This document shows positions 4,905-17,923 of a stretch of DNA of 17,923 bases, one piece after another (position 1 is the stretch's first letter; each line of letters starts with the position of its first letter). The position numbers and the translations under genes are program-made. Location of the stretch: contig JAGBGV010000241.1 of assembly GCA_017935805.1 (NCBI GenBank), positions 1 through 17,923 on the forward strand. The letters run 5' to 3'. A model generated the notes under the pieces. It ran no database searches. It saw only the letters and a program-made list of their open reading frames with translations, and was not told the origin of the DNA. The DNA comes from Clostridia bacterium. GTDB taxonomy: Bacteria > Bacillota_A > Clostridia > Oscillospirales > CAG-272.

Positions 4905-6029
4905 TTAAACGAGAAGATTCTTTTCAGTTTCGGGATCGAAGAAGTGCATTACCTTGCCTTCGAATGTAACATAAATTGTTGCACCGTAAACCAGGCCCTT
5001 GCGCTGTTCATCATCGAGAGAAACTGTAGGAATACGAACGATGAGCTTATCGCCGTTTTCTTCAACTACGTGGAGGTGAAGCTCGCTACCCATCATTTCG
5101 TTAACAACGATCTTGCAAGGAATAGCTGCGGGGTTATCCTTATCTGCAAGGATGAAGTGCTCAGGACGAACGCCAAGAATGATCTCCTTGGAACCTGCCT
5201 GCTTTTTAGCAAGCATTTCAGCCTTCTTGCCTGTTACCTCGATCTTAGCACCGTAAGGTGTTACATAGTACTTGCCGTCCTCGAGTACGAGATTTGTCTT
5301 GAATGTATTCATCTTAGGTGCGCCGATAAATTCAGCAACAAAGAGGTTGTCAGGCATGTCGAATACCTCAGTAGGTGTGCCGACCTGCATGATGAAGCCG
5401 TCCTTCATGATTACGATACGGTCACCGAGAGTCATAGCCTCTGTCTGGTCATGTGTAACGTAAATGAAGGTTGTGTCGATCTTCTGACGGAGCAGGATGA
5501 TCTCAGCTCTCATCTGGTTACGGAGCTTTGCGTCAAGGTTGGAGAGCGGTTCGTCCATGAGGAACACCTTACTGTCTCTAACCATCGCACGTCCGATAGC
5601 AACTCTCTGTCTCTGACCGCCGGAGAGAGCGCGGGGCTTTCTTGTAAGATACTCAGTAATACCGAGAATCTCAGCAGCCTTTGTTACCTTTTCATATACT
5701 TCATCCTGAGGAACCTTCTTGAGACGGAGGCTGAATGCCATGTTCTCAAATACTGTAAGGTGGGGATAAAGCGCGTAGTTCTGGAATACCATCGCGATAT
5801 CACGGTCACGAGGCTGAAGGTCATTTACAACAACGCCGTCGATCTCAATTGTACCTTCGGAAATATCCTCGAGACCTGCGATCATACGAAGTGTAGTAGA
5901 TTTACCGCATCCGGAGGGACCTACGAATACAATAAATTCTTTGTCGGCAATGTCAAGGTTGAAGTCCTGAACTGCAACTGTGTCCTTGCCGTATATCTTT
6001 TTAACATTAGTTAATTTAACACTAGCCAT
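4905..6029 (-). CDS. msmX: Sugar ABC transporter ATPase, MsmX/UgpC (MalK) family
   Basis: This 374-residue ATPase energises binding-protein-dependent oligosaccharide import. All key elements are visible: Walker A GPSGCGKST (37-45), Q-loop Gln83, signature LSGGQ (135-139), Walker B VFLMDE (155-160) and switch His193. A C-terminal TOBE/OB-type regulatory domain follows (about 235-374, including GVRPEHF). Length equals that of MsmX and MalK. AGGAG lies 6 bases before the ATG. It is the last gene of the transporter operon, 12 bases after malG, and ends at the bidirectional terminator. MsmX-type ATPases often serve several permeases, including galactan and maltodextrin systems in Bacillus, so its presence does not decide the substrate. 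Confidence 0.95.
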   Translation of the reverse strand: MASVKLTNVKKIYGKDTVAVQDFNLDIADKEFIVFVGPSGCGKSTTLRMIAGLEDISEGTIEIDGVVVNDLQPRDRDIAMVFQNYALYPHLTVFENMAFSLRLKKVPQDEVYEKVTKAAEILGITEYLTRKPRALSGGQRQRVAIGRAMVRDSKVFLMDEPLSNLDAKLRNQMRAEIILLRQKIDTTFIYVTHDQTEAMTLGDRIVIMKDGFIMQVGTPTEVFDMPDNLFVAEFIGAPKMNTFKTNLVLEDGKYYVTPYGAKIEVTGKKAEMLAKKQAGSKEIILGVRPEHFILADKDNPAAIPCKIVVNEMMGSELHLHVVEENGDKLIVRIPTVSLDDEQRKGLVYGATIYVTFEGKVMHFFDPETEKNLLV

Positions 6030-6041
6030 ATTATTCTCCTA

Positions 6042-6917
6042 TTATCCTTTCACTGCTCCGCCTGTTACGCCTTCAACATAGTACTTCTGAAGTGCAAGGA
6101 AGACTGCTACAACAGGGATCGCTACTACAACGCCCGCGGCGCAGAACATGGTATAATTCGTATTTACCATGGTTTTGGAAAGCCATTCGTACATACCGAC
6201 CGCAACGCTCATACCTTGGCTGTTTTCATGAATAAGATAACTTGCAAGCATGAAGTCGCCCCAAGGTGCCATAAAGCCCATGAGTACTGTATAGATAACG
6301 ATAGGCTTGGAAAGAGGCATGATTACCTTATAGAATACCTGCCAACGTGTGGCGCCGTCTACTCGCGCAGTTTCGTCAAGGCTCTTGGGAATAGTATCGA
6401 AGAAGCCCTTGGATACGTAGTATCCCATACCGCTGCTCGCGCAGTAAACGATGATAAGTCCGAGAGGTGCCATCTCCATGGTAAGTCCGAAGTCGGAGAA
6501 TACCTTGTAGATGAGGATCATGGTAAGGAATCCGGGGAACATTCCAAGGATCAGCATAAGGTTCATAAGTCCCTTTCTGCCCTTGAATCTGAGTCTGGAG
6601 AGCACATAGCTCATTGAAAGAACGAAGAATGTCTGAAGCACTGCAGTTGCAACGCCCATAATTGCTGTGTTCTTGAACCAGTTAAAGAAGTCAGTTTCCT
6701 TGAAAAGTCTGATATAGTTGTCAAATCCGAATTCACCGGGAATGAACCTACCGTCCATACCGCGTACATCGACCTTGAAGGACTCAAGTACAATACCGAC
6801 AAATGGGAAAAGCCATATGATGGTTATTAGTATCAGTAAGATATAAATAACAGTGTTACCGAGTCTGCGGCTTGTTGAAGCGTTAAGACTCTTCTTATTC
6901 AGCTTATTGTTTTTCAT
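6042..6917 (-). CDS. malG: Oligosaccharide ABC transporter permease, MalG/GanQ type
   Basis: The 291-residue inner permease has a short basic N-terminus, six predicted membrane spans and the EAA loop that contacts the ATPase (DETARVDGATRWQ...MPLSKP, about 181-205). The C-terminal ending GVTGGAVKG matches the MalG pattern. Its start ATG shares one base with the stop of the upstream malF (TAATG), and the AGGAGG ribosome site lies inside the end of malF, indicating translational coupling and equal subunit production. It forms a heterodimer with the malF product. MalG (maltodextrin) and GanQ (galacto-oligosaccharide) proteins are close relatives, so the substrate is not fixed by this gene. Confidence 0.93.
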   Translation of the reverse strand: MKNNKLNKKSLNASTSRRLGNTVIYILLILITIIWLFPFVGIVLESFKVDVRGMDGRFIPGEFGFDNYIRLFKETDFFNWFKNTAIMGVATAVLQTFFVLSMSYVLSRLRFKGRKGLMNLMLILGMFPGFLTMILIYKVFSDFGLTMEMAPLGLIIVYCASSGMGYYVSKGFFDTIPKSLDETARVDGATRWQVFYKVIMPLSKPIVIYTVLMGFMAPWGDFMLASYLIHENSQGMSVAVGMYEWLSKTMVNTNYTMFCAAGVVVAIPVVAVFLALQKYYVEGVTGGAVKG

Positions 6918-8503
6918 TACTTGTAATCCTCCTCATTTCTTGTAGACGGAATTACATTGTAAACGATAAGCGACAGTACAGCAACCACAACGAATACAAG
7001 AATACCGATGAGAGATGCCATATAGTACTTACTTTCCGCACTTCCGAGTGTCATCTTGAACAGCCATGTGATAAGAAGGTCTGTATGACCTACAGATACA
7101 CCGCCGGCTGTGCCGATAGCTGTGTTGATCGGGTTACCACCGGTCAGAAGATAGATTACGTTGAAGTTGTTAAGGTTACCTACAAAGCTGGTAAGCAGAT
7201 ACGGACCCATTACGAACATCATATAAGGCAGAGTGATCTTTGAGTACTGCTGCCAGGGGCTTGCGCCGTCGATACGGGAGGATTCGTAAAGGTCTGCGGG
7301 GATATTCATAAGAATACCTGTTGCCATAAGCATTATGTAAGGAATACCTACCCAGATATTGATAACAATAACAAGGACTTTTGCCACTATGGGTGAATCC
7401 CAAAGTGAGAAGAAGTGGTTTGTGCTGAGATAGTTCTCAATGAACGGAATCTCGCCAAGAACCTTACCGATAATACCGGAAGAGTCAAAGAGCTTTGCAA
7501 CGTAAAGGAGTGATACGAACTGAGGAATAGCGATGGTCATAACCAGCACTGTTCTCCAGAACTTCTTGATCTTGATGCCCTTCTTGTTGATCATGATCGC
7601 AACGAACATACCAAGGAAGTAGTTGGTAAATGATGCAAAGAACGCCCACATGAGAGTCCAGGAGAGGATCTCACCGAAAGCAAGACCAAGACCGCCCTTA
7701 CCGAAATCGAAAAGCTCGTTAAAATGCTCAAGTCCTACCCAACTGAACAGGTTAGCATAACCGTCATGAGCCGCGTCATAGCTTGTGAAAGCAACGAGCA
7801 CCATGTAAATGATGGGAAGAACCGTAAATGCCATAATGCCGAACAGAGGGAGTGAAAGAAGTGTTTTGTGGAACTGATCGTCAAGCAAAGATCTGAGGTC
7901 ATCCTTACCGCTTCTAACCTTCTTGCCTTTTTTGGTAATATCAATGCAGATTCTGCACTGTTTTACCTGCATACGCCATGTTACGACAAACGCAATAATA
8001 AAGATGATTGTAAGAAGACCGTAAAGCATAACCTTTACAGAGTCGTCGCCTGCTACCCAGTCCTTTGTTACGATCTGCATTCCGCCGTAATCAATGGTAT
8101 TCTCAACGTAGCCGCCCTGAACTGTACCGATCGTTGCACCGGTCTGGAACCAGTTACCTTTGGCAAGCCAATAAATACCGCCGCTGGGTACAACCATATA
8201 TCCGATAAATACTAATCCGAACAGAAGGAAGAGGATACCTCTCAAAATCTGTCCATAGTAAAAATTGCCGAAACCGAAAATGAAGAACGACAGTTTAACT
8301 GCCCAGTTACCGTTCTTGAAAGTGTATCCAATGTCGCAAAATTCGTTCTTAACAGCTAAGCCGCAGGTCTTAAAGAAATTCAAAATACCAATTCCGAGAT
8401 TCTTGAACCACAGCGGAATAGCACAGAAGAACAGTTTAAGTTTGTACAGGAAAGCTTCAAACTTATTTAGTTTTAAGTAATCTAAATCGTTTAATCTTTT
8501 CAT
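6917..8503 (-). CDS. malF: Oligosaccharide ABC transporter permease, MalF/GanP type
   Basis: This permease has 528 residues if it starts at the ATG at 8501-8503; a TTG two codons earlier (8507-8509) is also possible. It has an unusual N-terminus: about 70 amphipathic or hydrophobic residues, then a span near 72-104, an external segment of about 50 residues, and further spans from about 158 onward. The EAA loop ESSRIDGASPWQQYSKITLP lies at about 407-426 and marks the MalK-type ATPase contact. Length is close to E. coli MalF. It is coupled to malG by a one-base overlap. The start codon lies 12 bases plus a 17-base palindrome away from the nearest good ribosome site. The binding protein gene lies upstream, separated by two stem-loops. 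Confidence 0.93.
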   Translation of the reverse strand: MKRLNDLDYLKLNKFEAFLYKLKLFFCAIPLWFKNLGIGILNFFKTCGLAVKNEFCDIGYTFKNGNWAVKLSFFIFGFGNFYYGQILRGILFLLFGLVFIGYMVVPSGGIYWLAKGNWFQTGATIGTVQGGYVENTIDYGGMQIVTKDWVAGDDSVKVMLYGLLTIIFIIAFVVTWRMQVKQCRICIDITKKGKKVRSGKDDLRSLLDDQFHKTLLSLPLFGIMAFTVLPIIYMVLVAFTSYDAAHDGYANLFSWVGLEHFNELFDFGKGGLGLAFGEILSWTLMWAFFASFTNYFLGMFVAIMINKKGIKIKKFWRTVLVMTIAIPQFVSLLYVAKLFDSSGIIGKVLGEIPFIENYLSTNHFFSLWDSPIVAKVLVIVINIWVGIPYIMLMATGILMNIPADLYESSRIDGASPWQQYSKITLPYMMFVMGPYLLTSFVGNLNNFNVIYLLTGGNPINTAIGTAGGVSVGHTDLLITWLFKMTLGSAESKYYMASLIGILVFVVVAVLSLIVYNVIPSTRNEEDYK

Positions 8504-8537
8504 AATCAAAATATAAACTGAGTTTATACTGACTCCT
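8504..8537 (-). promoter_or_regulatory. malF leader: Shine-Dalgarno separated from ATG by a palindrome
   Basis: On the minus strand AGGAG (8537-8533) is followed by TCAG, then the perfect inverted repeat TATAAACTCAGTTTATA (8528-8512), then TTTTGATT and the ATG at 8503. Linear spacing is far too long for a normal ribosome site. If the repeat folds (7-base stem, 3-base loop) the effective spacing becomes about 12 bases. It may instead be a DNA operator. Confidence 0.5.
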
Positions 8538-8606: not shown

Positions 8607-8633
8607 AACAATGCCTAATCGTTTTGAAGACAA

Positions 8634-8650
8634 GGGGGATTTTCTCCCCC
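8634..8650 (-). terminator. GC-rich stem-loop after the binding-protein gene, possible attenuator
   Basis: On the minus strand GGGGGA pairs with TCCCCC around a five-base loop, 23 bases after the stop of the binding-protein gene. The following bases (TTGTCTTC) are only weakly T-rich, so full termination is doubtful. Together with the stem-loop at 8567-8606 it probably protects the 3' end of the binding-protein message and lowers expression of malFG. Confidence 0.5.
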
Positions 8651-8673
8651 TGCTGCCTTCAGTAAATATTAAA

Positions 8674-10212
8674 TTATTCTACGGGAATGAGAGTTACTGT
8701 ACCTGTCTGTGCGCCGTCCCATACGAGCTGTACCTTGTAGTTACCGTCAGCTTCAACAACGATGTTAGCACCGTTGAATTCTACGCCGAAGTTAACATCC
8801 CAAGATGCGCCCTGGCGAACCTTGAATTCTTCGCCTGCCTTGAGTGCAAGAACGTCAGATACATATGTGCCGGGTTCAACCTCTGTCATAGCGAAGTCAA
8901 CGTCCCAAGATGTGCCGCAGATACCACCGATAACGCCCCATGCGTTCTTCTGCTCTTCTGTCATCTGGAAGAGACCGTCGATTGTGGACTGGTATGCATC
9001 AAGAGCTGCCTTGAGGTCTGCGTCGCTCTTAGCTGCCTTAGCGTCAGCGCCGAGAACCTTTGCGATATCCCACCAAGAACCGTGGATCTGGCCCTGAGGC
9101 TGACCGTATGCGTTCTGGAGAGCGAGAGCTGCGAGAGAAGCGTTAGACTGAACTGCTTCGGAAGCCTGAGCCTTGAGGTTAGAGGGACCTCATTCGAAGC
9201 TTGCGAATCTCTGGTTCTGGCATTCTTCGCCTGTCAGATACTGAGCGAGGAGAGAAAGAACTGCTGCCTTCTTAGCGTCTGTCTGGGGCTTAACACCCAT
9301 GAGCTTGTTACCTGTGTAAGAGCCGAGGTGGTAGGTCTTGCCGTCAACTGTGAAGGAAGGAAGATCTGTTGCACCGAGGTTTGCGCCGAAGTGATCAGCT
9401 GCAGCACCTGCGTTCCAAATACCTGTGATAACAACACCTGCATCTGTGAAGATGTCTGCGTTGCTGTCATAGCACTTGGACTGAGCAAGCTTCTGCATAC
9501 CCTTCATTGCTGCGAGACCTGCATCGGAGTTGAAGTCGTCGTCAACAGCGATGAATTCGCCATCCTGGTTCATTGTCCAGTTGGAGTGGCAGCCTGTAGC
9601 GAAGAAGAAGGATGCTGTGTACCAAGCATTCTCAAGAGCATAACGGAACTTAACGTCGTTAGCTTCACAAGCAGCGATGATGTCTTCAAGGCTGTCGGGA
9701 TTGGAGATGATGCTTGTATCATAGTACATGTAGTAACCGTTGTCGCTTGTCATAGGATAAGCGTAAAGTGTGCCTGCAACAGATGCAGCTGCAACGGAAC
9801 CTGCGTCGTTGTTAGCCTTGATTGCTGTAGCGATGTCACCACCGGGAGCAGCAAGAGCAGCAGCCTGTACAAGACGAGCGAGCTGGTCCTGTGCGAAGCA
9901 GTAAATATCAGGAGCTGTAGCAACGTCAGCAACTACCTTAGAACCAGCGTCAGCTTCAGTAACGCCTTCGATCTGAGCGTTGATTACGATGCCGGGGTTA
10001 GTAGCTTCAAATGCATCGATCTGAGACTGGAACTGTGCAGCAACGCCGTCCATCTCGGATACCCACATAGTAATGTTGTATGTGCCTTCAAGTCCTGTAG
10101 CAGCACTGCCGCCGTCAGGATTCTGTTCAACGGGTTTCTTGTCGCAAGCTACGAATGTAGCAGCAATCATAAGAACCGCAAGAATAAGTGATAAGATTTT
10201 ACTCATTTTCAT
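8674..10212 (-). CDS. Solute-binding lipoprotein (MalE-like) with C-terminal SusE/X25-like domain; in-frame TGA at codon 341
   Basis: This is the extracytoplasmic receptor of the malFG/msmX transporter. The start is clear: AGGAGG lies 7 bases before the ATG. Residues 1-23 are a lipoprotein signal ending in FVAC, with Cys23 the lipid anchor. Residues about 45-410 show the type I binding-protein pattern (YNITMWVSE, then YAYPMTSDNGYYMYYD and a late conserved block). At codon 341 (9190-9192) a TGA interrupts FASFE-stop-GPSNLKAQAS. The same frame continues for 171 codons without further stops, and Trp-Gly-Pro-Ser-Asn is the expected sequence there. Residues about 424-512 form a compact Trp-rich module (WGVIGGICGTSWDVDF, then GTYVSDVLALKAGEEFKVR) like the SusE/X25 starch-binding domains. 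If TGA stops translation, the product lacks part of the second lobe and this module. Confidence 0.88.
9190..9192 (-). other. In-frame TGA (probable ancestral TGG) in the binding-protein gene
   Basis: The context on the minus strand is GAA TGA GGT CCC. Reading TGA as Trp gives WGPSN, a sequence expected for this family. The stop lies 171 codons before the natural TAA at 8674-8676. A short GAGG/CCTC inverted repeat (9182-9191) overlaps it. Confidence 0.9.
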
Positions 10213-10260: not shown

Positions 10261-10290
10261 ATTGTAACACCAAATGACCGATTCTGTCAA
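10261..10290 (-). promoter_or_regulatory. Candidate sigma-A promoter of the transporter operon
   Basis: On the minus strand TTGACA (10290-10285) is followed after 18 bases by TACAAT (10266-10261), about 50 bases upstream of the binding-protein start codon. It separates the transporter operon from the glycosidase operon that ends at 10364. The 70 bases between are AT-rich, with no GC-rich terminator, so readthrough from the glycosidase genes is possible. Confidence 0.75.
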
Positions 10291-10363: not shown

Positions 10364-11476
10364 TTAGTTTCCAGCCGAAGTTTTATACTCGTCGAACGCC
10401 GGCAATTTCTGTCCGCAGTAGTCGAAAAGGCACTGATTTGCCCATTCGTTTGATGTAGATTTTCCTTCTTCGTGTATATATTCCTGTCCCGCTACAGATG
10501 CCCAGCAGATTCCCTCACCGGGTAGCCAAAGCGGTTCCCAATAAAACACTCCGCCAATATCATTAGCGCGTGCAGTGGCAAGGAAATCTCTTACAAATGC
10601 GGTCTGTCCTTCGGGAGTAACAGGATACTTTTCGGTAAATCCGGGCATATAGGCTCTATCCGAGTCGATAACAAGTCGCTTCTCTTCCCCACCGAGAGAG
10701 TACGCTTCAGTGGTAAAGCCATAACCAAGCTCCATTATCATGATCTCCTTGCCGAATCTTCTGCAGTCCCGCAGGTTGGCAAAAAGCTCTTCGGGTGTGC
10801 CGTGCCAATATGGATAATACGATGCGCCGATGATATCGTAGTCTACACCGTGACTCTCCATATTGGAATAGAATTCCTGATACACCTCTTTATCGTTACT
10901 CCGTTCAAGATGCAGTACTATCTTCGCCTCCGGTGTGATCTCGCGGCAAGCACGGCATCCGGCATCGGCAAGTCGGCAGAAATTATCGTAATTTCCACGC
11001 TTTCCCTCTCCGAGATCCAGCTTTCCGAGCGGCCAAAGCATTCCGTTAGTGATCTCGTTGCCAACCTGTATCATGTCAGGCGCAACACCTTCGCGGCACG
11101 CAACAGTCAGGCACTCCTTGGTAAACTCATACACGGCATCGGTCATTCTGTCAATATCATATTCAGCCCAAGCCTTTGGTATGATCTGCTTTCCCGGATC
11201 TGCCCAGAAATCACTGTAGTGGAAATCCATCAAAAGTCGGTATCCCTTACTCTTTGCCAGCTTTCCGAGCTTTACATAGTTATCCATATCGCAGTTTCCT
11301 GCAAGATAAGGCGAACCGTCCTTGCCGTAAGGGTCGTTCCACACGCGGATACGCATGAAATCAACGCCGTTTGCGCGGAATGCGTCAAGTGGATCTATTT
11401 CATGTTCGCCTTCGTAGAATTTTGCACCGTGCTCCAGTTCTTCAAGGTAAGTAGAGACATCAATTCCGAGGATCAT
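10364..11476 (-). CDS. Cytosolic GH53 endo-beta-1,4-galactanase-like enzyme
   Basis: GH53 enzymes cleave beta-1,4-galactan, the side chain of pectic arabinogalactan I. The 370-residue product is essentially a bare (beta/alpha)8 catalytic domain. Family signatures are MRIRVWNDP (41-49), DFHYSDFWADPGKQ (84-97), the acid/base Glu141 in VGNEITNG and the nucleophile Glu249 in IMELGYGF, with ASYYPYWHG (218-226) between them. There is no signal peptide, unlike the second GH53 in the locus, so it probably acts on imported oligosaccharides in the cytoplasm. Its ATG overlaps the stop of the preceding zinc-ribbon gene (ATGA), indicating coupled translation. It is the last gene of the upstream operon. 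Confidence 0.93.
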   Translation of the reverse strand: MILGIDVSTYLEELEHGAKFYEGEHEIDPLDAFRANGVDFMRIRVWNDPYGKDGSPYLAGNCDMDNYVKLGKLAKSKGYRLLMDFHYSDFWADPGKQIIPKAWAEYDIDRMTDAVYEFTKECLTVACREGVAPDMIQVGNEITNGMLWPLGKLDLGEGKRGNYDNFCRLADAGCRACREITPEAKIVLHLERSNDKEVYQEFYSNMESHGVDYDIIGASYYPYWHGTPEELFANLRDCRRFGKEIMIMELGYGFTTEAYSLGGEEKRLVIDSDRAYMPGFTEKYPVTPEGQTAFVRDFLATARANDIGGVFYWEPLWLPGEGICWASVAGQEYIHEEGKSTSNEWANQCLFDYCGQKLPAFDEYKTSAGN

Positions 11477-11733
11477 TGCTCTCCTCCCTTGTGCGGTGCG
11501 AATTTGATAGGCTCATTGTCTTCACCAAAGTCAACAACTCGCAGCTTCATCGCACGGTAACGGTATCTTGCAGCTTCGTTCAGTCGGAGTACATCATCTT
11601 CCTTGCCGGTGAATCCACAGCGCAGGCAATAGTACTCGCCCTTGTCCTCGTCGTAGAACATATCAATGTCGATATCTCTCATGAAGCATGAGGGACAACG
11701 GAAATTCAGTTTGCCTTTTGTAGCTTGAGCCAT
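11473..11733 (-). CDS. Small zinc-ribbon protein in the glycosidase operon
   Basis: The 86-residue protein has two CxxC pairs (C13/C16 and C36/C39; CPSC...CLRC) about 20 residues apart, the spacing of a TFIIB/rubredoxin-knuckle ribbon. A charged, helical C-terminus follows (EAARYRYRAMKLRVVDFG). There is no signal peptide. The start is supported by GGAGAGG seven bases upstream. Its first 28 bases lie inside the end of the 601-residue gene, and its TGA overlaps the ATG of the cytosolic GH53, so the three are translated together. The ribbon suggests a nucleic acid or protein contact rather than catalysis; a regulatory or chaperone role would be speculation. I do not recognise a named family. Confidence 0.83.
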   Translation of the reverse strand: MAQATKGKLNFRCPSCFMRDIDIDMFYDEDKGEYYCLRCGFTGKEDDVLRLNEAARYRYRAMKLRVVDFGEDNEPIKFAPHKGGEQ

Positions 11734-13511
11734 GTCTTGACCTCTCCTTTGCTAATGGTTTTTGTGAGTCCGAGATGATATACAGGCGAGAAGGCTATAC
11801 CCTCTTCAACAAATGCTTCATCATTGTCGCCGCCCATTTCTACTCTTGTGAGAACGTCGGGAATGATAACATATGCGCTCTCTGCATTACCCTTTACGAT
11901 CTTTTTGCCGTGATAAGAGAACTGCATATCGTCTCCGTCAACACAGAGAGTGAGCTTTGTCATATCCGCCTGATACTCTGTAGTGCCGAACGCACCTGTA
12001 AAGTATTCGTTGAATGTTACCTGCTCGTCTCCTATATCGTTGAGGATGCGTCTTTCGGTAATGATCTTACCCTCTCCCTCAAGTATAGTGAACACGGACT
12101 GAATTACTATATCAAGTCCGCCGAGGCTAACTGTGACAGGGTCTGTTGTAAGTCTGACACCGCCGTCGATCTTATCGTATTTCGCCATAGTTCTTGTGAG
12201 GCAAAGGTCTGCTGTTTCTCCTCTGCAGCTTACCTTACAGGAACGGATAGTACCTGCGCCTGCGTAATGAGTAAAGTAGCCTGCACGGTAGTTTATCTGA
12301 ATTAGGTAAGGATAGGATGCGTCATACACGTTGTCCGTGCCGATACCTGTTTCCTGGGGAATTCGTGCAACGTAAGGACGAAGATCGATCATTGCACCGC
12401 CTTGATTAAAGTCGAAGCAGGTTCTCATCTGCGGGTCCGCATATCAGAAATACTCCTTGTTGCTGCCGTAAAGTATATCCTTCCAAAGAGCACATTCACC
12501 GCGGTTATAATCCTGATGACAGCTTCTGTAGTAGTCAGCGAACTCACTCATGGTCATATCAATGAGCTTGCCCTCAGCCTTCAGCTTGCCGTAGTACTTC
12601 ATACCGTCATCATATGACTTTGCAAGAAGCTCATAGGGTGCTTCCCAGCGTCCGCGCTTATTGAGCCAGCCGGGACCGACAAACATCATGTTATAGCTGT
12701 ATCCGTCGTTGTACTTGGCAAGGTGGCGGTACTGGTCGATAAGATTATAGAGATAGGGATATTCGTACTCGCCATTGTCATTGTAATAGATCATTCCGCG
12801 GAGCACGTTCTGTGGGTGTGTACCGAAGTTGGAGCCGTTTCCGTCAAAGCAAGCCATAAGGTCGCGTGACAGGTGCGGTATTGCAACGATACCTGAGTCA
12901 TCGTCAGCGGAACAGGCAGGACAGTGAGAGTTTACTTTAGAGGGTATCCAAGGGTTCCACGGACCGCCGTCCATGAAGGTATACCATGAGTTGTTGCAGG
13001 TATGGTATGCCTTCGGTCCTTCTTCCCAGCAGGTCGCAACCGCGCATTTTACTGTGGGATAGTGCTTCTTAATATAGTTTATCGTGTATGCGTCGAGGAA
13101 GTAGCTGCTTGTTGACTCGGGATAGAATCCGAACTTGTCATAGAACTTGCCAAACACGTCGTCGATGATCTCTTCCTTGGTCTTATCATCGAACATCCAG
13201 ATGCAGAAGTCCTCTGTGTGATACTTTGCTCTGAACTCAGGGCACGGCAAACCAAGCAAGGAAAGTCCGATCTCGTCCCCGTACTTCTCGTGCTCCTCTT
13301 TAGCCTGTTCAACGATCACATCAGAGAAAGGAGACGCGTATGTGATCTGAATAGTTGTTTTCAGCCCATATTTGTGGGCGCAGTCCTGCTGAAATCTGAA
13401 GATATCAATGGACTCGTCGCGAACTCCCTTGCCCTTGCCGAGTGCACGTTCTGCATACTCCGGAGAGAGCTCGGGGCGGTGGATAATGTTGACTACAAAT
13501 CTGTTTTCCAT
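11706..13511 (-). CDS. Unrecognised 601-residue protein, possible carbohydrate-active enzyme; in-frame TGA at codon 356
   Basis: Read through one internal TGA (12444-12446), this is a single frame of 602 codons ending at TGA 11706-11708. No signal peptide is seen, so it is probably cytosolic. The N-terminal 350 residues look like a barrel-type enzyme domain rich in aromatic and acidic residues (FVVNIIHRPELSPEYAERAL at the start; DFCIWMFDD; FMDGGPWNPWIPS; a CPAC pair; MFVGPGWLNKRGRWEAPYE). This could be a GH57- or deacetylase-like fold, at low confidence. Residues 357-601 are mostly beta strand, like the C-terminal sandwich of many glycosidases. The TGA interrupts NKEYF-stop-YADPQMRTCFDFNQGG, where Trp is the natural reading. 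The ATG at 12426-12428 just beyond has no ribosome site. The gene lies 13 bases after the amylase gene. Confidence 0.78.
12444..12446 (-). other. In-frame TGA (probable ancestral TGG) in the 601-residue gene
   Basis: The context on the minus strand is TTC TGA TAT GCG. The frame is open for 355 codons before and 245 after it. A short perfect inverted repeat, TGCGGACCCGCA (12441-12430), begins two bases downstream. Trp would give EYFWYADPQ. Confidence 0.85.
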
Positions 13512-13524
13512 AGTTTTCTTTCCG

Positions 13525-15108
13525 TTACTTTAGTATTACGCTTGTTTGCGGTCCGACTGTGAGAGATGTGCCGTTAAGCTTAGCGGAGCCTACTCCCACG
13601 TAGTCACTGATTTTTGTGAAGCTGTAGCCTTTGATAACACCGAGGTCAATTGTTATCTCCGATGTTGAGTTATTGTGAAGAAGTCCGATGGTCTCACCGT
13701 TATACTCGATAATAAATCCACCGAGATTCTTTTCTCCACAGCTTACAGCGGTATATTTGCCTCTTGCTATTGCAGGATACTTATGTCTGATGCCGATCAG
13801 CTTGCAATAATAGTTGTAAAGGCTGTTCTCGTCCTCCAATTGAGTCTTGACGGTTGATTCAATCTGCTTGGATGCAGGGTAGGTAGTACCGACAGGGTCT
13901 CTTATGAGGTCCTCGTCTCCCCAAAGCATTGCAAGTCTGCGGTTGGCGTCAGTGCTCTCGCTTCCTCTTGAACCTCTCATGCCAATTTCCTCACCGTAAT
14001 ATATTACAGGAGAGCCCGGGGAGAGCAGATACAGATTCGCCGCCATCTTCATATTGTTTTCAGTGATAAATGAGCCTGCGATTCTGTCCATATCGTGATT
14101 GGAGAGGAACGGCATGATCATTCCCTCAGGGTATTTTTCAGCTATTCTTCCCTGGAGAGATCCGATATAGTTGGTGTATTTGGAGATTCCTGTTCCCTTT
14201 GCGGCAGATGCAACAACTCCCTCTGCCTGTGCCATCGCAAAGTTGAAGCAGTTGAGTCCTGCGGTGTAGTATTCAAGTATCTCGGTCTCACCGGACCAGC
14301 ACTCGCCTACACAGTAGATATCCTGATCAATGGCGCGCAACTCTTCCATGTACCATTTCCAGAACTCAACAGATCTGTCGGTGTTTCCATAATAAATGTA
14401 CTTAACAGCGTCAAATCTGAAGCCGTCAACGCCAAGGTCGAGATAGTATTTTGCAACGTCAAGCATGGCCTGTCGAACATCGGGATTGTCATAGTTCAGC
14501 TCAGGCATTCCACCGTCGAAATTGCACTCATACCAGCAGTCCACTCCCGCGATTTTTTGGTACTGTATACCGTTTTGCTTTTCCGCAGTTGTTACGCATG
14601 AATAGTAATCGTAATAAGGGTTCTCTGTGTCTCCGTTGATGCGAGCTTCCTTGAAGTTGAGGAACCACTCGTGACTGTTTGAGGTGTGGTTTATCGCGAG
14701 ATCAAGAATAAGCTTAACATTACGCTCATGACACAGTTCGACAAGCTCAACAAGGTCGGATTCCTCACCGAATCGCCAGTCGATCTTATAATAATCCGAT
14801 GCGTCGTATTTGTGATATGTAGGGGATGAGAATATGGGTGAGAGCCAAATTCCCTGAACTCCGAGGCTCTTGCCAGAATTGATGTTTCCGTCATTGAGAT
14901 AATCCATACGGTTGATGATACCGCGAAGATCCCCAATTCCGTCTCCGTTTGAATCGGAGAAAGAGCCTACGAATATCTGATAAAATGTTCTGTAATTGTC
15001 GTCAATCGGGTCAACCATAGGCGGAAGCTCCTTTTTGCCGCAGCCCGTCAGCATCACCGCAGAGATTATCATTACAGCTGACAATAACAAAGCTATCTTT
15101 TTTATCAT
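13525..15108 (-). CDS. GH13 alpha-amylase family lipoprotein
   Basis: The 527-residue enzyme should hydrolyse alpha-1,4-glucan at the cell surface. Residues 1-23 are a lipoprotein signal with the lipobox LTGC (Cys23). The GH13 (beta/alpha)8 barrel follows, with the usual conserved regions: FYQIFVGSFSDSNGDGIGD (42-60), DLAINHTS (136-143), GFRFDAVKYI with the nucleophile Asp233, VGECWSG with acid/base Glu269, and FLSNHDMDR with Asp339. The C-terminal 80 residues form the all-beta domain C. No extra binding module is present. A weak ribosome site (CGGAAA) precedes the ATG, 13 bases after the upstream GH53, so coupling within the operon is likely. The GH13 subfamily cannot be fixed by eye. Confidence 0.93.
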   Translation of the reverse strand: MIKKIALLLSAVMIISAVMLTGCGKKELPPMVDPIDDNYRTFYQIFVGSFSDSNGDGIGDLRGIINRMDYLNDGNINSGKSLGVQGIWLSPIFSSPTYHKYDASDYYKIDWRFGEESDLVELVELCHERNVKLILDLAINHTSNSHEWFLNFKEARINGDTENPYYDYYSCVTTAEKQNGIQYQKIAGVDCWYECNFDGGMPELNYDNPDVRQAMLDVAKYYLDLGVDGFRFDAVKYIYYGNTDRSVEFWKWYMEELRAIDQDIYCVGECWSGETEILEYYTAGLNCFNFAMAQAEGVVASAAKGTGISKYTNYIGSLQGRIAEKYPEGMIMPFLSNHDMDRIAGSFITENNMKMAANLYLLSPGSPVIYYGEEIGMRGSRGSESTDANRRLAMLWGDEDLIRDPVGTTYPASKQIESTVKTQLEDENSLYNYYCKLIGIRHKYPAIARGKYTAVSCGEKNLGGFIIEYNGETIGLLHNNSTSEITIDLGVIKGYSFTKISDYVGVGSAKLNGTSLTVGPQTSVILK

Positions 15109-15121
15109 AATTGTTTTCCGT

Positions 15122-17122
15122 TTATTCCTTTACTGAATTAAGCATAGCATCATCGATCTTGCCCCATGCATTGGGTCCGCTACACTTGACGTAGATGCCC
15201 ACAGTTATTGTATCGCCCGCGCTATACTCAATTCCGTTTATTGTTGCAGTATGCCATTCGTTATAGACGGTTATCTCGGTTTTGTCGGTGTATACGATCT
15301 CACCGTTTATCTTGATATAAGCGTAAATGTCAGTTTCACCGCCGTCTCCGCCCATGATCGAGATAGAATAGTTGTATTTTCCCGTTTTGAGGTCCTGTAC
15401 GTCCTGCTCAAGTGTAAACTCCACGCAATCAGCCGCCGCACCCCAGAAGTGGTAGTGGAATGTGCCTGTGAGAGAGTCTGTAACCTTGTCCTCAATCTTG
15501 AGTTCATCAAATTTGCCGATAGGTGTTGCAGTCCAGCCACTTTCGCCTTCTTCAAAGCTCCAGTTTCGGAGGTAGTTGTACTCGACCATTGAAACATAGC
15601 AATGAGCAGTCATACCCCCTGCCGTGCCGAGTATATCATATTTCGCAACGCCGCCTGACTTCATGGCTTCATAGTCCACATTATGCCACTCAACAGGGAT
15701 AGCCTCATTTGAGTTGTCACTCATGATGGCGTTTACGGTGTCCGGTAAGATTATCTCGCCGTTTAAGTCGATCATGAGGTTTACGTCCTCAACAGCATCA
15801 GCAATCACAGGGGCTGAGTTACCCTCTCTCATAAGCGCGAACACCTTGAGAGACTCTATGGGGTGTCCTGTTTCGTCAAAGAATGCCTGATTGTCCACAG
15901 CGCAACCGCCGTACCACTGACCTGCGTCTTCCGGATCATATCCGCCCGCATAGCTTGATGCCCAACCGGAACCGTGCTTTTCCCAAAGTGCAGAATTCTC
16001 TTCCCAGCTTGATCCGCCGGCGGAGATCCATGTACCTTCCCAATAGAACACGCCTATTCCGTTTGTGGTTTTGTTCGCAACAGTATCAACAACATTGCGC
16101 ACTAGATTTGCCTGTCCTTGAGGTGTAAACGGGTAGTCCTTGACTATTCCGCCGCCCTCACCTATGGTATTTCCGTAGAAGTCGCTGTCCTCCGCGGTAA
16201 ATGCGTACGAGGTTTCGGCTACCATTACTTTTTTACCGTAGGTGTTTGCAATATCTGAAAGAACAGATGCAAGATTGTCAAGTGTGCCGTGCCAGAAGGG
16301 ATAGTAGGACGAAGCGAAAACGTCGTAATCTACACCGTAGTACTCAAGGTTCTTACCGTAGCTGACATAATTCGATACTTTCTCGGGGTTGGCAAAGTGT
16401 ACTGCCACAAGTGCATTCGGGCACACCTCGCGCACCGCCTTTGAGCCCGCGGACATAAGCTGCATGATCTTCTGCCATCCGCCAAGTGAGCTGCTGTTCT
16501 CACCGCACATGGCACCGTTTGTCTCGTTACCGATCTGCACCATACCGACATCAACGCCTGCATCTGTTAGCTTTTGGAGGCAATCCTTGGTATACTGATA
16601 CAGTGCCTCGGACTTTTCTTCGATACTCATGCCGCGCCAAGCTTTCGGTACCATCTGCTTTCCGGGATCTGCCCAGAAGTCGGAGTAGTGGAAGTTCACA
16701 AGCAGCTTTATGCCGTACTGTGTGGCGCGCTTGCCTATTTCTACCGCGTTGTCGATATCGCAGTTGCCTCCGCCGTATCCGTTTCCGTCCGAATCAAAGG
16801 GATCATTCCAGATACGAACGCGAATGTAATTTATTCCGTTCTCGGAGAGTATCTGATACACGTCCTTTTCATTGCCCTCGAAATCGTAATACTTTACTCC
16901 GCCTGCTTCAAGAGAAGGAACAGCGGAAGCATCCATACCGAAAATGAAGTCCTCGGGAAGGTTCTCTACCTTTTCGACGTAAAGGGTGTCGGATGTCACG
17001 TTTGTGTCTATCACATTAGGTCTCCAGTCGCTGCTTTTCTTTTCTTTTGCGCATGATACAAATGCTGAAAACGCACACATAGCCGCAAGAATTACAGCAA
17101 CCGTTTTCTTGATATTCTTCAT
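15122..17122 (-). CDS. Surface GH53 endo-beta-1,4-galactanase with C-terminal accessory modules
   Basis: The start is taken at the ATG at 17120-17122, which has GGAGG 6 bases upstream. The frame runs 10 codons further to a TTG, but the lipoprotein signal (MKNIKKTVAVILAAMCAFSA, then FVSC with Cys24) begins at this ATG. The GH53 domain spans about 50-430, with RVRIWNDPFD, NFHYSDFWADPGKQ (143-156), acid/base Glu200 in IGNETNG and nucleophile Glu303 in VAETSYAF. It is followed by an Ig-like or bacterial linker domain (about 438-512) and a beta-sandwich module (about 515-664, starting NYLRNWSFEEGESGW). That module resembles the CBM4/9 or CBM61 galactan-binding modules often found on GH53 enzymes. 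The enzyme probably makes galacto-oligosaccharides outside the cell. Confidence 0.94.
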   Translation of the reverse strand: MKNIKKTVAVILAAMCAFSAFVSCAKEKKSSDWRPNVIDTNVTSDTLYVEKVENLPEDFIFGMDASAVPSLEAGGVKYYDFEGNEKDVYQILSENGINYIRVRIWNDPFDSDGNGYGGGNCDIDNAVEIGKRATQYGIKLLVNFHYSDFWADPGKQMVPKAWRGMSIEEKSEALYQYTKDCLQKLTDAGVDVGMVQIGNETNGAMCGENSSSLGGWQKIMQLMSAGSKAVREVCPNALVAVHFANPEKVSNYVSYGKNLEYYGVDYDVFASSYYPFWHGTLDNLASVLSDIANTYGKKVMVAETSYAFTAEDSDFYGNTIGEGGGIVKDYPFTPQGQANLVRNVVDTVANKTTNGIGVFYWEGTWISAGGSSWEENSALWEKHGSGWASSYAGGYDPEDAGQWYGGCAVDNQAFFDETGHPIESLKVFALMREGNSAPVIADAVEDVNLMIDLNGEIILPDTVNAIMSDNSNEAIPVEWHNVDYEAMKSGGVAKYDILGTAGGMTAHCYVSMVEYNYLRNWSFEEGESGWTATPIGKFDELKIEDKVTDSLTGTFHYHFWGAAADCVEFTLEQDVQDLKTGKYNYSISIMGGDGGETDIYAYIKINGEIVYTDKTEITVYNEWHTATINGIEYSAGDTITVGIYVKCSGPNAWGKIDDAMLNSVKE

Positions 17123-17176
17123 AATTGTCCTCCGCGTATATTGATTTATCAAATTTTTACGGGGATACTTTCACCA

Positions 17177-17923
17177 TTATTCTGCTTCGCTTGTATTTGC
17201 AAGTGTGTCATTAATATAGATCTTTACTCCAATCGCGGGAAGGGATATTTTACCTGTCTCGTTTGCCAGAATACCGCTGCCCGCTCTCTCACGGTCCGCG
17301 ATAAGGTTCCACTCACCGTCAAGCTCGTAAGTCAGGTCTGTGTTGAGCGGGTTAATAAGAACAAGTGCTACACCGCCGTCGTTGTCTCTGATGGTTACTG
17401 CAAGTGCGCCGCCTGCGAATTCTTCGTGTTCTATTGTTACGTCAAGGTCGGAGAAAATATCATACGCCTTACGCATCTCGATGAGTCCCTTGTAGTACAG
17501 CATTGTTGCGTACTCGCGGCTTCCCTCTGCAAGAACGGACCAGTTGATATTGTTGATAGCATCGCTTGACTTATAGCTGTTCTCGTCTCCATCCTTTGTG
17601 CGAAGCATTTCTTCACCTGCCTGCCAGAACGGAGTACCGCGAGATACCATAATGATAGCTGCACCGAGATTATTCATGCGGTTTCTCTCGTCATCGGAAT
17701 CATTTTGATTGGAGAGAAGCAGCTTATCCCACAGAGTATTGTTGTCATGTGCACTCATGTAGTTGATGACCATTGCATTGTCAACAGTCCATCCCTGTCC
17801 AACGCCAACACCGCCCTTGATACCGAACATGATCTTGGCTGCTGTGCCCTTTGGTGAGCCGCTGATATAACCCTTTGCTGTCTTTTCAAAAACGCTTCCC
17901 TTCAGTCCGTCGCGAGTTGCATC
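17177..17923 (-). CDS. pulA: Type I pullulanase (GH13_14), C-terminal part, cut by the window edge
   Basis: The frame is open through the right edge of the window, so only the last 248 codons are seen. The visible part begins DATRDGLKGSVFEKTAKGYI and continues with NYMSAHDNNTLWDK, where Asp is the conserved transition-state residue. GTPFWQAGEEMLRTKDGDENSYKSSDAIN follows, characteristic of type I pullulanases that cleave alpha-1,6 branches of pullulan and starch. A beta-rich C-terminal domain follows, and no sorting signal or binding module is seen after it. The surface GH53 gene starts 54 bases downstream, so pulA probably heads or belongs to the same operon. Whether it carries a signal peptide cannot be seen. 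Confidence 0.9.
   Translation of the reverse strand, partial: DATRDGLKGSVFEKTAKGYISGSPKGTAAKIMFGIKGGVGVGQGWTVDNAMVINYMSAHDNNTLWDKLLLSNQNDSDDERNRMNNLGAAIIMVSRGTPFWQAGEEMLRTKDGDENSYKSSDAINNINWSVLAEGSREYATMLYYKGLIEMRKAYDIFSDLDVTIEHEEFAGGALAVTIRDNDGGVALVLINPLNTDLTYELDGEWNLIADRERAGSGILANETGKISLPAIGVKIYINDTLANTSEAE

Follow-up and report, generated by a model that had tools for sequence, protein, structure and literature searches.

The window analyzed here, i.e., the whole stretch of 17,923 nucleotides, contains a gene for a MalE-like extracellular solute-binding protein that is interrupted by one in-frame TGA. The TGA is a confirmed feature of the given sequence. The reading that we favor, with a probability of about 0.45, is a recent TGG-to-TGA change that is private to this strain and is read under the standard code, i.e., a young loss-of-function allele. 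The gene, its stop and the site preceding it are as follows.

8674 to 10212, minus strand: gene for a MalE-like extracellular solute-binding protein, 512 codons across the TGA, with an SBP_bac_8 domain and a C-terminal beta module
9190 to 9192, minus strand: in-frame TGA at codon 341 of this gene, in a column with Trp in all listed homologues
10261 to 10290, minus strand: promoter-like site preceding the binding-protein gene (hexamers TTGACA and TACAAT, spacing 18 nt; 11 of 12 positions matched; TG ahead of the second hexamer)

The frame runs from an ATG at 10212 to a TAA at 8674-8676 and comprises 340 open codons, the TGA and 171 further codons, with no other in-frame stop; the position and the codon counts reported by the first-pass annotation of this DNA were re-derived and are correct. 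As judged from the sequence, the N-terminus is of the lipoprotein type. The promoter-like site is a consensus match only, with five such sites in the region versus 6.8 in shuffled sequences. No tRNA was found in the whole window with ARAGORN, and searches of phage and plasmid collections yielded no match.

The window has a GC content of 46% and is collinear with a contig of a sister species (L001), with approximately 81% nucleotide identity; a second sister locus is L018. The surrounding genes belong to a carbohydrate cluster.

4905 to 6029, minus strand: MalK-like ATPase gene, no internal stop
6042 to 6917, minus strand: MalG-like permease gene, no internal stop
6917 to 8509, minus strand: MalF-like permease gene, no internal stop
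10364 to 11476, minus strand: GH53 glycoside hydrolase gene, no internal stop
11706 to 13511, minus strand: 601-codon gene split by a TGA, one gene in L001 and L018
12444 to 12446, minus strand: second in-frame TGA, in place of the invariant Trp of KEYF[W]YADP at codon 356 of the 601-codon gene
13525 to 15108, minus strand: GH13 alpha-amylase-family gene, no internal stop
15122 to 17152, minus strand: second, longer GH53 gene with a Big_4 domain, no internal stop
17177 to 17923, minus strand: pullulanase-like gene (type I), C-terminal part only, truncated at the end of the contig

The pullulanase-like part scores 150 bits against TIGR02104, which is under the whole-protein cut-off of 504.5. 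Two further stops that seemed to interrupt GH53 and amylase frames were discarded as candidates; they are located in extensions upstream of the gene starts, and the genes themselves are open. Comparison of the window genes with the L001 and L018 frames revealed neither frameshifts nor further internal stops. The two GH53 genes match each other at approximately 35-38% via the sister sequences, and GH13-type genes are located between and next to the two. Codon 183 of the MalG-like permease gene (6369-6371) encodes Thr, where Ala is present in the 45 loci with a letter at this position (46 loci compared); this stretch resembles the EAA loop that is conserved in permeases of this kind. A 526-codon open frame on the plus strand (8611-10191) lies antisense to the binding-protein gene; similar frames are present in L001 and L018, and the frame appears to be a mere reflection of codon bias.

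The tryptophan expected at the stop is well conserved. Regarding the best 120 of 5696 homologues, Trp occupies the TGA column in all 120, and W, G, P, S and N of the motif WGPSN, which the first-pass annotation had proposed as the family sequence at this place, are each present in 120 of 120. After addition of the best 120 of 4405 matches from a second search, Trp was found in 181 of the 182 listed rows, which is 181 of 181 when the window's own product is left aside. The single gapped row is this product itself (P0121, 340 amino acids, a single sequence from a contig of 17,923 bases, as long as the window), which is also the only one of the 182 aligned homologues that ends exactly at the stop position; of the six others with fewer than 480 residues, none stops there. 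Homologues that end naturally at this position had been named in advance as evidence against an interruption, and none occurs among the 181 other listed proteins. The same had been said of TGG at this codon in reads or other strains, and at the level of related species TGG is indeed what was found: the column is covered by 55 matches from 54 of 64 related genome loci, with the codons TGG (52), TAT (2) and GCT (1) and no in-frame stop. None of the 64 loci matched an exact DNA pattern taken around the TGA. The closest listed homologue (P0001) is intact, has 512 residues, is 98% identical and shows eight residue differences besides the stop; this sequence and P0183, the closest relative of the split gene, were compared as proteins only. 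A copy nearer than 91% to P0001 was not found in 25 genomes of the sister genus and 395 genomes drawn from the family. Because related species have TGG and a 98%-identical intact protein exists, the stop looks, on the aligned sequences, private to this contig rather than a fixed feature of the family.

The Pfam domain SBP_bac_8 (PF13416) matches with 74.5 bits across the TGA (residues 65-361) and with 65.2 bits when the first 340 residues are taken alone (cut-off 27); the better match across the TGA indicates that the domain spans the stop. The nearest solved structures by sequence are 4ua8 (maltotriose-binding), 9kha (maltodextrin-binding) and 5mk9 (MalE1), and a fold search with the model of the intact homologue ranked maltodextrin-binding proteins at the top. 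Both 4ua8 and 5mk9 (MalE1 of L. casei) are among the best matches by sequence as well as by fold, with identities of 26% and 19%, respectively, in the fold search. Their chains of 383 and 378 residues are matched over the binding fold and, unlike the window protein, are without an extra C-terminal beta module; the residue of 4ua8 at the Trp column is Gln. We take the source species of 4ua8 to be Eubacterium rectale. In the model of P0001 (mean pLDDT 76.7), helices at residues 346-422 belong mostly to the binding fold and are followed by the beta module at 425-510. Under the standard code the window product ends at residue 340, short of the complete two-lobe fold, and since the P0001 model places these helices and the beta module downstream of the stop, the 340-residue product is predicted to lack a portion of the second lobe together with the entire C-terminal module. 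The first-pass annotation had foreseen the same loss on termination, with which the model agrees; transport would probably be lost in the strain. It had also called the module SusE/X25-like: the beta module stands, whereas the X25 label is weak, with 19.6 bits for the window fragment and 18.5 bits for P0001 against PF22058 (gathering score 27). Similarly, P0001 yields 38.5 bits against the model of the galacto-oligosaccharide-binding protein GanS (NF053763), for which the equivalog cut-off is 700.

The second in-frame TGA is located in the gene next but one from the binding-protein gene, which appears in the window as two ORFs (12444-13511 and 11706-12428). In L001 and L018 one uninterrupted 601-codon gene extends from the shared start, with TGG at the site in both, and all of the best 120 of 2595 homologues have Trp in this column. 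The true stop of the gene (11706-11708) is TGA, also in L001 and L018. The best listed homologue is P0183, an intact protein of 601 residues that represents 345 member sequences and 2 contigs. Between it and the window there are differences at three of 601 positions (L61P, the stop and A456T), of which two (L61P and the stop) are at invariant columns. At codon 61 (13329-13331, minus strand) the window encodes Pro, where Leu is the sole residue among those listed homologues that have a letter in this column (at least 108 of 120). The split gene yielded no Pfam or NCBIfam family match. Its structural model (confidence 63.9) had a 4-alpha-glucanotransferase as best fold match, with a TM-score of 0.27; this low-confidence model resembles a carbohydrate enzyme with a barrel plus a beta-sandwich.

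The frequency of such stops was estimated from 295 alignments of relatives (best per locus at an identity of at least 55%), which comprise 129,061 codons and 2438 Trp. They contain two in-frame stops, a TAG in the MalK homologue of locus L050 (65% identity), which is the sole one deep within a gene, and a TGA located five residues before the end of a pullulanase alignment. The window has two in-frame stops in 5613 codons, whereas 0.087 would be expected at the relatives' rate; the chance at that rate is 0.004 for at least two stops and 0.08 for at least one more. TGA at Trp positions amounts to 2 of 88 in the window versus 0 of 2438 in the relatives (Fisher p = 0.001, or p = 0.034 with the first TGA set aside as ascertained, i.e., as the reason for looking). 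This excess counts against a private change, as does the type of the change: random nonsense mutation does not favor TGG to TGA, which makes up 4-18% of the nonsense opportunities in the window (transition weights 1 to 10). Two such changes in 18 kb are a mild coincidence, with p about 0.03-0.08 after ascertainment.

A serious competitor, to which we give less weight than to a real allele, is that both stops are consensus base errors, TGG having been miscalled TGA in a contig probably assembled from shotgun reads, in which case the living strain would have no broken gene. This would fit the occurrence of the stop in one contig only among the listed homologues and the existence of near-identical intact proteins, and some related MAG contigs state a coverage near 3. 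Two of three P0183 differences on invariant columns are also about what is expected of unselected changes (298 of 601 columns are invariant), a pattern that counts against a private change to the extent that it fits errors as well as mutations. On the other hand, private missense changes at otherwise invariant columns number 4 of 1246, plus one stop, in the window (nine genes), the same as in L001 (4 of 1246) and similar to L018 (2 of 1244), with a range of 0 to 2.26% over the loci with at least six genes; the stop at 9190 is outside this count because Trp is not universal there in the wider locus set. The proposal that the contig is error-rich as a whole was rejected on these figures, and there is no frameshift in the compared genes. 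If errors are few, it is unlikely that two of them would both be TGG to TGA. Taken together, the private-change counts and the P0183 differences are compatible with a real allele as well as with base errors. A literature search joining in-frame stops with assembly errors in MAGs, all terms required together, found no paper.

The part of the binding-protein frame downstream of the TGA has remained under constraint, in line with the first-pass annotation, which saw the character of the family continue past the stop. Values of dN/dS after the stop are 0.26 versus L001 and 0.22 versus L018, compared with 0.17 and 0.13 before it. For the same parts, the values of the intact pair L001-L018 are 0.25 downstream and 0.16 upstream of the stop position, and comparisons with L009, L005 and L004 give 0.11, 0.12 and 0.10 after and 0.11, 0.13 and 0.13 before the stop. 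An old pseudogene under relaxed selection was rejected, because the intact pair shows the same rise and the other three loci show none. A clear relaxation of selection downstream of the stop is not seen, which points to a recent change. From the sequence comparison there is no sign of a long unselected period, which would fit a young allele or an error. With close relatives that are intact (P0001 at 98%, P0183 with three differences) and dN/dS values of the binding-protein gene without long relaxation, the interruptions have features expected of nonsense polymorphisms or young pseudogenes.

The first-pass annotation had further proposed that UGA is sometimes read as Trp, so that a truncated and a full form of the binding protein are made. 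Such reading at a useful level, by an opal suppressor tRNA-Trp, an altered anticodon stem or a weakened RF2, is in our view unlikely. It retains some probability because of the second TGA-for-Trp in the same cluster: both in-frame stops are TGA, both stand at a Trp that is invariant in the listed homologues, the binding-protein gene is under constraint, and the excess of TGA at Trp over the relatives points in this direction, weakened as it is to p about 0.03-0.08 by ascertainment. UGA is known to be leaky: Belinky et al. 2021 (PMC7918605) cite a UGA readthrough of 6% in Bacillus subtilis, which rises to 19-54% with prfB mutations, and suppressor tRNAs are stated to occur in 0.3% of standard-code bacterial genomes (PMC13092985, excerpt); both figures count in favor of this reading. 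Direct support for the two forms was not obtained from the window or its sisters. TGA ends two of the 15 window genes, namely the split gene (at 11706-11708, TGA in both sisters) and a YitT-family gene (at 678-680, TAG in L001), so that UGA ends one of the two broken genes themselves; 86 of the 88 Trp codons are TGG, and the proteins of close relatives are intact. The sister genomes G001 and G002, to which L001 and L018 belong, both have prfB (RF2) above the family cut-off. Among the 39 (G001) and 35 (G002) tRNA places read with ARAGORN, each genome has one tRNA-Trp, with the anticodon CCA and an anticodon stem (CCAGT/ACTGG) of 5 bp, and none has the anticodon UCA; both assemblies are fragmented, and the family model could miss a tRNA of the selenocysteine type. 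The tRNA-Trp pattern was found once each in G001 and G002, and the other 23 genomes of the sister genus had no match to it within three mismatches and are uninformative on their tRNA-Trp. In G001 (contig C30, locus L085, 1500-2795) a Val-Asp-Phe-Gly tRNA block is present twice in tandem, 879 bases apart.

Reassignment of UGA to Trp is described in the Mycoplasmatales, the Entomoplasmatales and four named bacteria of insect-symbiont type (PMC8629427), with an additional case in the Patescibacteriota (PMC13092985); the available excerpts of these two sources do not name the lineage of the window among such cases. Code 4, as used by the Mycoplasmatales and some insect endosymbionts (PMC8629427, in part), shares with the window the presence of UGA where relatives have Trp. 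It differs in that UGA is there unused as a terminator, whereas TGA ends two window genes, nearly all Trp codons are TGG, and the sisters keep RF2 with no UCA tRNA seen. A tRNA-Trp(CCA) with a 4-bp anticodon stem (PMC13092985, in part) would provide a route to UGA as Trp in a normal-looking genome, but the stem in the sister species has five pairs. A more specific proposal, that this Oscillospiraceae-like strain is in an early and ambiguous stage of UGA capture in which TGG-to-TGA changes are near-silent and UGA still ends some genes, we consider a little less probable again. A selenoprotein, with UGA read as Sec, would need Cys or Sec at the column, whereas Trp is present in 181 of 181 and 120 of 120 listed homologues at the two sites.

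Two ways in which the stop could be functional are both very improbable. Programmed readthrough, with the TGA kept to make a short and a long binding protein, would account for the intact frame downstream of the stop; a regulatory stop that is kept should, however, be shared, and it is present in none of the 55 genome matches and none of the 181 other listed proteins, and no RNA family matched anywhere in the window (Rfam, gathering thresholds). The halves might instead be separate proteins, the second made by restart downstream of the TGA. An ATG overlaps the TGA at 9190 (AATGAGG), and an in-frame ATG lies 15 bases downstream of the TGA of the second gene. The overlapping ATG, however, is in another frame that meets a TAA after four codons, and the stop lies inside the binding fold. 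A simple motif test for ribosome-site-like sequences was negative for both in-frame starts downstream of 9190, which are located 96 and 71 residues before the C-terminus; in the second gene it was positive for only one of eight in-frame starts, at 73 residues before the C-terminus. Restart after the stop was rejected on this motif test.

The favored reading, a recent private allele under the standard code, is in keeping with Trp in all listed homologues at both sites, with the intact P0001 and P0183 and with the TGA gene ends in the window and its sisters. We infer that the base call is correct and that UGA terminates in the window strain. In the proposed sequence of events, a single base change from TGG to TGA would have occurred recently and privately in the strain, UGA would terminate translation to give a 340-residue fragment of the binding protein, and full-length protein would be made at most in traces, via basal UGA leakiness. 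The gene at 11706-13511 would have undergone a change of the same kind of its own, from which it follows that the cluster for oligosaccharide use is probably under loss in the strain or polymorphic in the species.

In the part of their study available to us, Belinky et al. 2021 (PMC7918605) describe bacterial in-frame stops as short-lived polymorphisms. Their cases share with the present one an in-frame stop in a gene otherwise under purifying selection, with near-identical intact copies, and carbohydrate transport and metabolism is the category with the second most cases, after the mobilome. They focused on stops common to at least two species in order to reduce artefacts, whereas the stop described here occurs in one contig only. 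In its present form the finding is of modest scope: it adds another in-frame stop in a bacterial gene for sugar use and cautions that standard gene calling yields truncated and split genes on this contig. Were UGA instead tolerated as Trp, the window would offer a direct view of an intermediate of codon reassignment in gut Clostridia of intermediate GC content that still use UGA as a stop.
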